64,000 bases of DNA. It comes from Pseudomonadaceae bacterium (GTDB taxonomy: Bacteria; Pseudomonadota; Gammaproteobacteria; Pseudomonadales; Azotimanducaceae). Both the position numbers and the translations under genes were made by a program. The notes beneath the pieces were generated by a model. That model searched no databases, was not told the DNA's origin, and was given only the letters and a program-made list of their open reading frames with translations. This document shows positions 2,090 through 16,898 of the stretch, one piece after another. The stretch lies in NCBI GenBank assembly GCA_024743175.1, contig JANSXA010000002.1:434001-498000 (forward strand). The letters are read 5' to 3'. Each line of letters begins with the position of its first letter. Position 1 is the first letter of the stretch.

Positions 2090-3370
2090 TTACTGAATAA
2101 ACCACAAACTCAGTGCTGGAACGTATGTAATGAACCCCAGCGCCACCAGCAGCACCACCATAAACGGCCAGGTTGCAGCATAAAGCTCAAGCAGTGGCTT
2201 GTGGAACCGGTAACTGGCAATAAACAGATTCATGCCCACCGGCGGCGTAAAATACCCAATCTGCATATTCGCAAGAAAGACGATACCCAGATGTACAGGA
2301 TGAATGCCGTAACCTGCTGCAACCGGCAGCAGCAGAGGTACCATAATGACAATCGCAGAGTAAATATCGAGGATTGCACCCAGCGCCAGCAACAGCACAT
2401 TCAGCAGCAGCAGGAACCCTAACGGACTTGAGATATAGGTCTGCATTAATTCAAACAGCTGCTGTGGCACTTCTGCGTCAACAAGAAAATTGGTAAAAGC
2501 CAGAGCTATACCCAGAATCAGCAGAATGCCCCCAACCATGACCATCGACTCAACCATGACCTCAGGCACTTTCCGCAGCGAAACCTCACGATATAAAAAG
2601 ACTTCTACGATCAGCACATAGAATGCTGTGACGGCAGCCGCTTCAGAGACAGCAAAAAAGCCGCTGAATACACCACCAAGCACAACAAAGGGTAGCGGCA
2701 GTTCCCAGCGTGCGTCTTTTATGGCCTGCCAGACATTTGACCGCTTGAAAGGGATTCGCGGAATAACACCGCCACGGTGTTTCCAGAGCGTCCACGCGGT
2801 TAAGAGACCCAACATGAGGAGCAGCGGCCCAATACCGGCAATAAACAGATCAACTATCGTGAAGGGTTCACCAACATCAAGTTGCTGAGCTATTACACCA
2901 TAAAGAATCAGAGGCACAGAAGGCACGAGCAGTAATCCCAGACTGCCGGAAGAAGTCACCAGACCCAAACTGTAGCGTTCGGAAAAACCAGCCTCTTTCA
3001 GGGCCGGGAGTAACAAGGCACCTAACGCAACAATGGTGACGCCTGATGCACCTGTCAGCGCAGTAAAGACCGCGCAGGCGACAAAACCGACCACCGCCAG
3101 ACCGCTGGGAAGAAAGCCAAACATGCTTTGCACCAGGTTCACCAGACGTTTGGAGGTGTTTGCCTCGCTCAGCAGATAACCGCTGAAGGTGAATAGAGGC
3201 AGCGCGACCAGTAAAGGGGTGTCGACAATTCGATAGAGTTCGATCGCGACGATAGCCAGGTCAATGTCAGCACTATAGAAACCCAGCAGCGCAGCGCCCA
3301 GGAGGACAGAAAACAGCGGCGCACCAGCAACCGCTGCCACCACCAGTACGATAATGCCGAACCAGATCAC
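2090..3370 (-). CDS. dctM: TRAP transporter large permease (DctM family)
   Basis: 426 aa, multi-TM, FTALTGASGVTIVALGALLLPALKEAGF and NMQIGYFTPPVGMNLFIASYRF motifs. Confidence 0.93.
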   Translation of the reverse strand: MIWFGIIVLVVAAVAGAPLFSVLLGAALLGFYSADIDLAIVAIELYRIVDTPLLVALPLFTFSGYLLSEANTSKRLVNLVQSMFGFLPSGLAVVGFVACAVFTALTGASGVTIVALGALLLPALKEAGFSERYSLGLVTSSGSLGLLLVPSVPLILYGVIAQQLDVGEPFTIVDLFIAGIGPLLLMLGLLTAWTLWKHRGGVIPRIPFKRSNVWQAIKDARWELPLPFVVLGGVFSGFFAVSEAAAVTAFYVLIVEVFLYREVSLRKVPEVMVESMVMVGGILLILGIALAFTNFLVDAEVPQQLFELMQTYISSPLGFLLLLNVLLLALGAILDIYSAIVIMVPLLLPVAAGYGIHPVHLGIVFLANMQIGYFTPPVGMNLFIASYRFHKPLLELYAATWPFMVVLLVALGFITYVPALSLWFIQ

Positions 3371-3840
3371 ACTTCATCCCTGGCTGGCACGATAGTCAGG
3401 ATGGCATATCGTAATGCCATCACCGCAGCACCAACAGGCATAATGATTTCGCAGAGCCAGGCGGGCACAATGCCAAAAGCGATGGTGCCATCTTCATATT
3501 CAAAACGCACAAACTCAACGCTGTACCAGGCGAAAATCAGTAAAACTAAACAGGTAAACGCGCTGACAAACCGGCTCATGTAGGGTTTGAACTGCGGTGA
3601 GACAAAGCGACTGGCGATGTCGATCCGGATGTGCTCATTGCGCCTCGAGGCTATCATGGCGCCTAACATGGCAACCCACAGAACCACGACGCGTACTGCA
3701 CTGTCTCCCCAGTACAAACCGCTGTCGAAGAAGTTTCTCAGCACAACCTGAGAGGCCGAAAGCAGAATCATTGCCGTGAGTAACAAGGCTAACAACGCTT
3801 CTTCAGCGCGATGAATCAGCCGTAAAGCAGTTTTAACCAC
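3367..3840 (-). CDS. dctQ: TRAP transporter small permease (DctQ family)
   Basis: 4-TM DctQ-like protein (RRNEHIRIDIASRF). Probable GTG start at 3840 overlaps the dctP stop (GTGGTTAA); the listed 3939 start is inside dctP. Confidence 0.85.
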   Translation of the reverse strand: MVKTALRLIHRAEEALLALLLTAMILLSASQVVLRNFFDSGLYWGDSAVRVVVLWVAMLGAMIASRRNEHIRIDIASRFVSPQFKPYMSRFVSAFTCLVLLIFAWYSVEFVRFEYEDGTIAFGIVPAWLCEIIMPVGAAVMALRYAILTIVPARDEV

Positions 3841-4843
3841 CTGATTCGCGGAACTCTTCGAGTAGCGCAACAGTTTTATTGTACATCTCTGTAGAGACAT
3901 AGCCGGTTTCAACGAGGCGGTCTGTTGCCTCGGCAGCAAGACTCAACCATTCCTGCATTTGGGCCTCATTCGGTGCAGCCCATTTGATACCCTGCTTCGC
4001 CAGAGCCTGTTTTGCACTCAGATGATCGCGTCGCGCAGCCTGGTCAGCGCTGTGAACGGCAGCCCGCATTTCTTCCTCGACGATGACCTGTTGTTCGGGT
4101 GTGAGTCGCTTGAACGGCTTTTCCGCCATAGCGGCCAATCCGTAAACATACAATATCGGTAAATCAAGCCCATACTGAACCTGGGTGTGCCACTGCAGAG
4201 CAATAGTGCCGATCGGGGGTGAAGCGATACTGTTGATAAGGCCAGTCTGCAGGCCAGCAAGCACATCTGCTATAGGCAGCGGTATCGGAGAGATATCAAA
4301 TGCCTCGAACGCGCGCAACGAACCTATGTCGTTGTCTGGCGTCCAGACTTTACTCGCCTGCATCTGTGCAACACTTTGAGCAGGCTGCTGACTCATCGGA
4401 TAGGCAAAACCAACCTCGGCAAATCCGAAGCCAACAAATTTTTCCTCGCGCAAGCCCTGCATAAGTTGCTCATCAAGCTTGGCGCGGACGTAATCGATCT
4501 CCTCATCACTTCTGAACATCAGCGGCAGGTTGTACAGGGCGATATCCGGATAATTCTGGACCAGCCCCCCGGAAGTCAGAACCGCACCATGCAGCTGGCC
4601 GACACGCATCTTACGTAAGACAGCTTTATCATCACCCATCACGCCGCCAGGATAGAACTTCATTTTAACTGCGCCGTCAGTACGCTGCTCAATGGCTTTG
4701 CCATGCTTACGCAGGAGCTTCATCCAGCTCGACCCCTCCGGCGATAACGTGGCGATTTTAAGTGTCGCCGCCGCAGCATAAGGTGTGCAGAGCAGAGCGA
4801 AGCTCAAGGTAAAAAAGGTAAAGATACGTCTAGAAATAGTCAT
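3833..4843 (-). CDS. dctP: TRAP transporter substrate-binding protein (DctP family)
   Basis: Signal peptide, LKIATLSPEGSSWMKLLRKHGKAIEQRTDGAVKMKFYPGGVMGDDKAVLRKMRVGQLHGA. Confidence 0.93.
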   Translation of the reverse strand: MTISRRIFTFFTLSFALLCTPYAAAATLKIATLSPEGSSWMKLLRKHGKAIEQRTDGAVKMKFYPGGVMGDDKAVLRKMRVGQLHGAVLTSGGLVQNYPDIALYNLPLMFRSDEEIDYVRAKLDEQLMQGLREEKFVGFGFAEVGFAYPMSQQPAQSVAQMQASKVWTPDNDIGSLRAFEAFDISPIPLPIADVLAGLQTGLINSIASPPIGTIALQWHTQVQYGLDLPILYVYGLAAMAEKPFKRLTPEQQVIVEEEMRAAVHSADQAARRDHLSAKQALAKQGIKWAAPNEAQMQEWLSLAAEATDRLVETGYVSTEMYNKTVALLEEFRESGG

Positions 4844-5747: not shown

Positions 5748-6335
5748 CTATTTACTGAGCGTCTCGAGGTCTTTATACAACATGTCGAATGGTGGTCGTT
5801 TCCGGTATCCGGGTACCGCATACTTTGCCTTAACGATACCGTCACTACCGACAAAAATAATGCCTGGATGTGGTATGCCATAGGCGCGATGCCCTGGTGC
5901 ATAGTCTTCATCAAGCACTCCAAAAGCCAGCACATGTTTTGCGTTCTCGTCCTGCAACAGCGGATACCCAAGGTTTTCGCTGCTGTGAAAATCGGCCAGA
6001 ATTTCCCGACTGTCATACGTCATTGCGGCCACGTTGACCCCTAAAGCGGCAAATTTTTCCTGCCATTGTGCCAGTTGAACCAACTGGTGTTTGCAAAAGG
6101 GTCACCAGTCCGCCGACCGGCTTAAAAACAATAACAAGCCATGATCACCGGATAAAGAAGCAAGATGGTGCTCTACTCCAGCCTGATCTACTGCAGCAAT
6201 GGGCGGCAGCACAGTGCCAACAGACGGCCCCCAGCCTGCGGAGTATTCATCCGCGCTGAGCTGCAGGGAAACCACAGTGAAAAAGATCGCGGTAAGTCTG
6301 AGCAGCCACTGTTGTAAAGGTCCTGAATCAGACAT
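5748..6335 (-). CDS. Candidate selenoprotein: thioredoxin/peroxiredoxin (AhpC/TSA)-like, in-frame TGA at 6104..6102 read as Sec (W-U-P-F-C)
   Basis: ORFs 6102..6377 and 5748..6083 are in the same frame, separated only by one TGA and six codons: ...LLLFLSRSADW-TGA-PFCKHQLVQLAQWQEKFAALGVNV.... ATG at 6335 overlaps the upstream stop (ATGTCTGA). Hairpin follows the TGA. Confidence 0.8.
6071..6087 (-). promoter_or_regulatory. Candidate bacterial SECIS hairpin
   Basis: Minus strand: TGA-CCCTTTTGCAAACA-CCAGTTG-GTT-CAACTGG. Perfect 7-bp stem, 3-nt loop starting with G, loop begins 21 nt after the TGA. Confidence 0.7.
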
Positions 6336-7335
6336 GATCTTTCCCTGTTGTTGAACCCGCTGCGCCATTGGGGTCACTCACTCGACCTATTTGTCCGGTT
6401 TGCATCAGACTGACGTCACGTAAGCCAAGACGATCAACCGCTGCTTCCACCCACCTTGCGATGTGTTTGGGTTTCACATTGAAACAGTCACTGGCAAGAC
6501 GCAGCATACGTTTGTCCATCTTCTCAATCTGCCGATCAATATGAAGCAGCACTATATCGAGCGTCTGTTGCTCTAGGGCTTTGTCGTCTGCTGCGCTCTG
6601 TTGCGCTTCTCCGTGCAATTTCAGCAGCCCGCTGCGCGTGCGCAGGGTATCCGACATCTTCAGTAAGTACCACAACTGGCTCTTACCCTTGTCAGACAGT
6701 CCGGGGCGCAATAGTTCCAATTGATGGGCACATACCTGTACCCGGCGATACAGGTTTTTGCTCTGACTGGGCATGAGCTTTTTTGCATCAGCAAAACAGT
6801 CGTTGGCCAGGCGGTAGCTCTTTTTGTAACTGCGCGCCACCCGCTGACAGAGCAAATCATCATGCAAGTGACGAAATTCAGCGGATTCGCGCCAGAAGTG
6901 GCTGTCCCGCGCAAACAACTCGTTCAATTCATCCCAGCTGAACGGATTTTCCGGGCGTAGCTTGCGTGCGATGGTCAAAATTGCCTGAGCCTCGTGGTCT
7001 TCGCTGGCAACACCAGCCAGACGCATTGCCAGGCGGTGTCCGGACGAGCCATCCGCCAGGCCGCTGGCGGCTTTCTTCAATGTCTTTACATGGTTGACCA
7101 CCTCCGCGGTGGTATCTACCCAGCCAGGTTTCATCAGAGACCACATACTGGCCAGACGACGGCTGTCGCGGGTCAACAGACTCTCGGCATAAACCATGTG
7201 GCCTTCAGCAGGCAGCTCGTCACCCCCATCCGGCGACAAAGAATTGCCTTCACGGGTGTCACATTCCGCCAGATAGCGCAGACAGCGATTATTAATCTGC
7301 AGGCTGTAACTGACCACGTAGTCCGCTAAACGCAC
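6328..7335 (-). CDS. CHAD domain-like protein
   Basis: Listed ORF is extended into antisense of the crotonase; GTG at 7335 with AGAGG-like SD is a better start. CHAD-like repeats (VARSYKKSYRLANDCFADAKKLMPSQSKNLYRRVQVCAHQLELLRPGL). Confidence 0.6.
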   Translation of the reverse strand: MRLADYVVSYSLQINNRCLRYLAECDTREGNSLSPDGGDELPAEGHMVYAESLLTRDSRRLASMWSLMKPGWVDTTAEVVNHVKTLKKAASGLADGSSGHRLAMRLAGVASEDHEAQAILTIARKLRPENPFSWDELNELFARDSHFWRESAEFRHLHDDLLCQRVARSYKKSYRLANDCFADAKKLMPSQSKNLYRRVQVCAHQLELLRPGLSDKGKSQLWYLLKMSDTLRTRSGLLKLHGEAQQSAADDKALEQQTLDIVLLHIDRQIEKMDKRMLRLASDCFNVKPKHIARWVEAAVDRLGLRDVSLMQTGQIGRVSDPNGAAGSTTGKDHV

Positions 7336-7486
7336 AACGCTACCTCTTTGATAAAAAACCGATGCTAGCGGTTTCTCAACACAGAATCGAGGCTTTGCGC
7401 AGCTGCGATAATGCCGTTGAATCGAGCGCACCGCCCACCAGACTGCTAGACTGGCGCCCTGCAAATGGGTTGAGAGAGAGACTTCA

Positions 7487-16205: not shown

Positions 16206-16898
16206 ATGAGACCTGCTGACAGATTATTTCAAATTGTCCTGCAACTCGGCCGCGGTCGGGTCCTGACTGCACACACCCTGGCTGAGCGGCTGGAGGTCAG
16301 TGAGCGCACGATTTACCGCGATATCCAGAACCTGATGGCTTCCGGTATTCCAATCGATGGTGAGGCCGGCGTCGGCTATCGCCTGCATCGCGGTTACCAG
16401 GTACCACCCATGATGTTCGATCAGGACGAAATACAGGCTTTGATATTTGGTGCGCAGGTAGCGACACGCTGGGGTGACCATGACATGGCTGCCGCCGCCG
16501 AACGCATTCTCGACAAAATAGATGCCGTGTTACCCGAAAACCTGCGGCCTTTGCTGCAGTCCGAAACCCTGATCGTTCCAGAAATGGCCAGTGCCCAGAG
16601 TGAACTGACCACCACCAACCTTGGAGCGGTACGCGATGCGATAAACGACCGCAGACGCCTCTATATCACCTACCAGGATGCAGCAGAGCATCCAACAGAG
16701 CGGATCGTCTGGCCACTGAGCCTGATGTACTGGGGGCATACCTGGATGGTGGGTTGCTGGTGTGAACTGCGGCAGAGTTTCCGCAGCTTCAGAATTGACC
16801 GCATTGTTGAGGCACGCACCCTGGCCACAACGTATCCGGATGAATCGGGTAAGCGTCGGGCAGATTATTTTGCCCAGGTTCGTGACGAAAAATATTGA
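16206..16898 (+). CDS. YafY-type HTH/WYL-domain transcriptional regulator
   Basis: MRPADRLFQIVLQLGRGRVLTAHTLAERLEVSERTIYRDIQNL...; WYL-like TYQDA...ERIVWPLSLMYWGHTWMVGCWCELRQSFRSFRIDRI. Start moved from 16152, which lies within palindrome copy 2. Confidence 0.92.
   Translation: MRPADRLFQIVLQLGRGRVLTAHTLAERLEVSERTIYRDIQNLMASGIPIDGEAGVGYRLHRGYQVPPMMFDQDEIQALIFGAQVATRWGDHDMAAAAERILDKIDAVLPENLRPLLQSETLIVPEMASAQSELTTTNLGAVRDAINDRRRLYITYQDAAEHPTERIVWPLSLMYWGHTWMVGCWCELRQSFRSFRIDRIVEARTLATTYPDESGKRRADYFAQVRDEKY

Follow-up and report, generated by a model that had tools for sequence, protein, structure and literature searches.

A predicted exported Prx-like selenoprotein encoded just upstream of a TatT-TRAP transporter locus

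Within the window, the 64,000-nucleotide stretch of DNA analysed here, positions 6335 to 5748 of the minus strand constitute one selenoprotein gene, which routine annotation would report as two separate ORFs. The coding sequence (5748..6335, minus strand) runs from an ATG start to a TAG stop and, when read through an in-frame TGA (6102..6104), yields a Sec-containing Prx-like protein of 195 amino acids, in which the TGA is assigned from the sequence and its aligned homologues to Sec78, the U of a W-U-P-F-C motif. On this evidence, Sec insertion at codon 78 and membership of the Prx-like redox class can be predicted with near certainty, a judgement that leaves the substrate aside. By domain and motif, the gene is placed among the known Prx-like UxxC selenoproteins (pfam00578), reported in 2005 and again in 2008 and listed in current tables (PMC1088965, PMC2398784, PMC13188914). 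It has in common with these proteins, and with 'Prx-like 1' of the GOS survey, an AhpC-TSA domain with a CxxC motif whose first Cys is replaced by Sec, occurrence in marine bacteria and the existence of Cys homologues (PMC1088965, PMC2398784, PMC9312934, PMC13188914). Judged against the published descriptions, the subfamily in the window is set apart by its signal peptide and its conserved TatT-TRAP neighbourhood.

One reading frame with a UGA at the redox position

The two minus-strand ORFs at 6102..6377 and 5748..6083 share a common frame whose sole break is the TGA at 6104-6102. The first-pass annotation had proposed as much, placing the TGA on the redox Cys codon of a W-C-P-x-C motif and describing the downstream codons as intact and family-like, and each of these points was borne out. 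The read-through protein has the sequence SADW-U-PFCKHQL around the TGA, and its matches to the Pfam families AhpC-TSA (1.7e-20; 73.6 bits against a threshold of 26) and Redoxin (1.9e-12) both span the TGA. The second residue of the UxxC motif, Cys81 (TGC at 6093..6095, minus strand), is invariant in the alignments and is presumed to be the resolving Cys. Translation likely begins at the ATG at 6335, which follows a GGGAAAG-like ribosome site, and not at the GTG at 6377; the start of the gene overlaps the 3' end of an upstream ORF (6328..7389, minus strand) by 8 nt. The first ~29 residues (6249..6335, minus strand) were recognised by eye as an N-terminal signal peptide with the hydrophobic core LLRLTAIFFTVVSLQL and a likely cleavage site near LSA-DE, and by eye similar N-termini are also present in related proteins; from this N-terminus we infer that the product is exported. 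No NCBIfam model scored above its cut-off for the read-through protein, the nearest being those for thiol peroxidase Bcp, SelL-related proteins and ResA, all far below; the gene thus represents an exported subfamily that no NCBIfam model names or covers.

To follow the codon across relatives, homologues were collected from 78 genomes, the host genome included, at E<=1e-25. The search returned 54 matches in 40 genomes, all 54 with an in-frame TGA (one also with a TAA). The motif W-U-P-[FY]-C was present in all 31 related loci that were read, always with TGA at the Sec78 codon, and this codon was TGA in 29 of 29 codon-aligned genes. The host genome itself encodes a second family member, 40-42% identical and with TGA at the same codon. 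A related set of open frames (G026:C99, G030:C279, G017:C144, G037:C26, G035:C84, G488, G731, G802 and G819) is longer, at ~380-430 aa with one TGA, and probably represents fusions of the Prx-like domain.

Cys orthologues were found at the order level, with TGC or TGT at precisely this codon: five come from genus g357 (family f226), and another five were read in family f222. Genus g373, also of family f226, retains TGA in five of five genes. The homologues in f222 have no in-frame stop, and of ten genomes of this family that were tested, nine lacked selA; selA is still present in four of five g357 genomes. A tree requires three Sec/Cys changes and lends support to one switch within f226. More distant proteins at the class level also align Cys with the TGA position, in agreement with the conserved Cys that the first-pass annotation had expected among homologues.

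These data bear on the possibility that translation really ends at the TGA, the gene being in decay or misread. A standard gene caller does report two ORFs, as would be expected of a pseudogene or a sequencing error, but the protein is conserved on both sides of the TGA, its orthologues carry Cys at the codon, the genome possesses Sec machinery, and the in-frame TGA recurs in all 54 matches from 40 genomes. A misread TGC or TGT, raised at the outset as a possible cause, is excluded by the independent TGAs in homologous genes of dozens of genomes. We therefore assign a negligible probability to the pseudogene or error explanation, which the 54 TGA matches and the Cys orthologues refute in practice.

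A predicted SECIS hairpin and the selenium machinery of the genome

Downstream of the UGA, a predicted bacterial SECIS hairpin, CCAGUUG-GUU-CAACUGG (6071..6087, minus strand), has a 7-bp upper stem and a 3-nt loop that starts with G. The distance from the UGA to the GUU loop is 21 nt and the MFE is -10.2, within published bSECIS limits (criteria from PMC13188914); 42-nt folds of several relatives were weaker than -7.5. Folding energy of a single sequence was considered as proof of a SECIS element and dropped, because synonymous recodings fold about equally well (mean z -0.6, not unusual). Since the single-sequence energies are unremarkable, the case for a SECIS element rests not on stability but on a conserved register, covariation and loss in the Cys forms.

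Among 32 close genes, all six core pairs were formed in every sequence (100% paired), and two of these pairs displayed changes on both sides (U-A/C-G). The covariation score for these 32 genes was reached by 0 of 500 shuffles, and full pairing together with a loop starting G-G/U was found in 44 of 47 Sec genes compared to 0 of 10 Cys orthologues; the sequences are related, so both the shuffle and the Fisher tests overstate their independence. The loop began with G followed by G or U in every one of the 47 Sec genes, and a single Cys orthologue (L110) paired fully but without the G-G/U loop. At the codon level, across 47 conserved positions, zero entropy was seen, apart from the TGA itself, only for the hairpin codons CAG (U+6) and CTG (U+10); in contrast with the fixed CTG, the remaining conserved leucines use all six codons. 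This comparative evidence strongly supports the interpretation of the hairpin as a SECIS element inside the coding sequence.

The first-pass annotation had tied its proposal to the presence of selA, selB, selC and selD, and all four were found in the host genome (4.72 Mb, 98% complete). The selA (5e-142) and selB (6e-127) genes are adjacent and directly followed by a tRNA-Sec gene (71.7 bits; gathering score 47), identified by ARAGORN as tRNA-SeC with anticodon TCA, and selD (2e-80) lies ~11 kb beyond this cluster. Among the 40 genomes with matches, selA was found in 35; the other five are draft genomes, and the missing selA genes are probably draft gaps.

Two features of the machinery loci were also observed. 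The selD gene resides within a 732-aa open frame (L023:18476-19876 and beyond, on contig C7 of the host genome) with confirmed AIRS domains, and by eye the upstream part of this frame looks like a pyridine-nucleotide oxidoreductase, in the manner of the Ndh-SelD fusions that have been described (PMC2398784). An element of ~9.3 kb (L023:7355-16719, same contig) that encodes a tyrosine integrase and carries a tape-measure-like gene adjoins the tRNA-Sec gene at its 3' end; it is flanked by a perfect 23-nt repeat, TTCGACTCCTACCTCTTCCGCCA (7426-7448 and 16697-16719), which corresponds to the tRNA's own 3' end.

The open frame would also result from any other form of read-through, so we considered whether UGA might be read as Trp or Cys by way of an altered genetic code or a suppressor tRNA. 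However, the conserved upstream ORF terminates at a TGA (6330-6328), indicating that TGA still functions as a stop; the in-frame TGAs that were read lie at redox-Cys sites, and selABCD and the SECIS-like hairpin are present. On these grounds we rejected recoding of UGA as a residue other than Sec, which we hold to be highly improbable. Besides the gene in the window and its paralogue, five more AhpC/TSA-family genes of the host genome carry one in-frame TGA (C8:94822-95184, C8:51449-51811, C9:133633-133977, C14:110632-110973 and C5:79368-79703), indicating a genome rich in predicted selenoproteins. The motif types read at the corresponding loci (L063, L069 and L070) were TGGUT, RGHWUPFC and YUGC.

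The TatT-TRAP neighbourhood

Just downstream of the Sec gene and on the same minus strand are genes for the TRAP T-component TatT (PF16811; 4830..5693; 3.4e-69), with a lipoprotein-like N-terminus (LSGC), the solute-binding protein DctP (3833..4843; 2.9e-33), the small permease DctQ (3367..3939; 2.4e-25) and the large permease DctM (2090..3370; 1.5e-79). This set conforms to the definition of TPAT, namely TatT with DctP and DctQM. To the TPAT operon as reviewed, which contains no redox gene (PMC5812351), this locus adds the Sec gene. TatT proteins form TPAT transporters, which are thought to carry hydrophobic molecules, and among free-living proteobacteria TatT occurs mainly in hydrocarbon degraders (PMC5812351).

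The order Sec gene then tatT, followed by dctP where the locus is long enough, was observed in the genus of the window and in several other genera of its family; loci with this order include L003 (a Pseudomonadales MAG), L036, L039, L041-L046, L053, L054, L107, L108, L112, L116 and L122. The upstream ORF (6328..7389) has no Pfam match, and its homologues precede the Sec gene in several relatives. No tatT was found beside the L002-type paralogue or beside the f226 homologues. In several genomes, a small membrane protein that has no Pfam match is encoded after the second, L002-type Sec gene (L024:10945-11358, L026:2110-2529 and L029:1044-1463).

A general link between TatT and redoxins across the class was considered and rejected: outside the family, a redoxin lay within the flanks of only one of 30 TatT loci, as judged by a profile built from A3, which a more distant redoxin could escape. 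The association is therefore specific to the family of the window and not a general TPAT trait. The one positive locus, in a distant gammaproteobacterium, has a TlpA-like CxxC protein (L082:2975-3640) beside tatT-dctP-dctQ, on the opposite strand. In the window, co-transcription of the Sec gene and tatT is no more than a possibility, given a promoter-like match before tatT and, by eye, a GC-rich hairpin with a T stretch between the two genes. Our literature search found no paper tying TatT to redoxins or selenoproteins, and the conserved place of this exported subfamily, just upstream of TatT-DctP-DctQ-DctM and kept across several genera, may be new.

Predicted fold and proposed function

The mature part of the protein, with Cys modelled for Sec, was predicted by AlphaFold2 (pLDDT 93.5) with high confidence to adopt an AhpC/TSA fold. 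The nearest solved structures were the peroxiredoxins Bcp4, BcpB, PrxQ and AhpE, together with ResA, the only one with a sequence match. The Bcp/PrxQ and AhpE peroxiredoxins were the best fold matches (TM ~0.7-0.8), but identity to them is ~20%, and the protein has W-U-P-F-C and lacks the T-x-x-C/U active-site motif of peroxiredoxins. A sequence relation to SelL and SelL-related proteins (NF040769) was evident at 5e-9, although the score of 36 bits is below the cut-off of 120. The SelL motif is UxxU, compared to UxxC in the window protein. From these fold neighbours and the signal-peptide-like N-terminus, the function is most likely that of a periplasmic Prx-like thiol peroxidase or thiol-disulfide oxidoreductase.

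We propose that UGA at codon 78 would be decoded as Sec by SelB and tRNA-Sec(UCA) under the direction of the SECIS hairpin 21 nt downstream. The selenolate of Sec78 would then attack a peroxide or disulfide, Cys81 would resolve the intermediate by forming a selenenylsulfide, and the protein would be re-reduced by an electron donor. More speculatively, its steady position upstream of the TatT-TRAP genes suggests that it might protect or modify the proteins of the adjoining uptake system or their hydrophobic cargo, and oxidised hydrophobic compounds are possible substrates. The strongest form of this proposal, in which the exported protein is a dedicated TPAT part in this bacterial family and, during uptake, reduces peroxides or disulfides carried by the hydrophobic cargo or by the binding proteins, is conceivable from the conserved gene order but, in our view, unlikely.

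It is quite possible, though short of probable, that the protein is not a peroxidase but has its main role in protein maturation, as a thiol-disulfide reductase of the ResA/TlpA type with no link to TRAP cargo, an alternative that concerns function only and has Sec insertion in common with our preferred reading. Like the window protein, ResA/TlpA proteins are exported, their WCxxC-type motif aligns with W-U-P-F-C, and the UxxC motif resembles a thioredoxin-like CxxC; beyond the sole sequence match to ResA among solved structures, such a role is consistent with the paralogue and f226 homologues that lack a TatT neighbour, and with the TlpA-like protein beside tatT in L082. On the other hand, the score against ResA (NF002854) is 27.7 bits compared to a cut-off of 170, the overall fold is nearer to Bcp/PrxQ, the top structural matches are the peroxidatic Bcp, PrxQ and AhpE, and the family matches are strongest for AhpC-TSA and the Bcp type.

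Whichever function applies, six more AhpC/TSA genes of the host genome, the paralogue included, have an in-frame TGA, and sister genera supply close Sec/Cys pairs in which only the Sec forms keep the complete hairpin, a clean natural experiment on how Sec is exchanged for Cys and the SECIS element lost. The fixed TatT-TRAP link provides a testable lead on the cargo of TPAT transporters; if the protein does serve as a TPAT part, it would couple a selenium-dependent redox step to a transporter.
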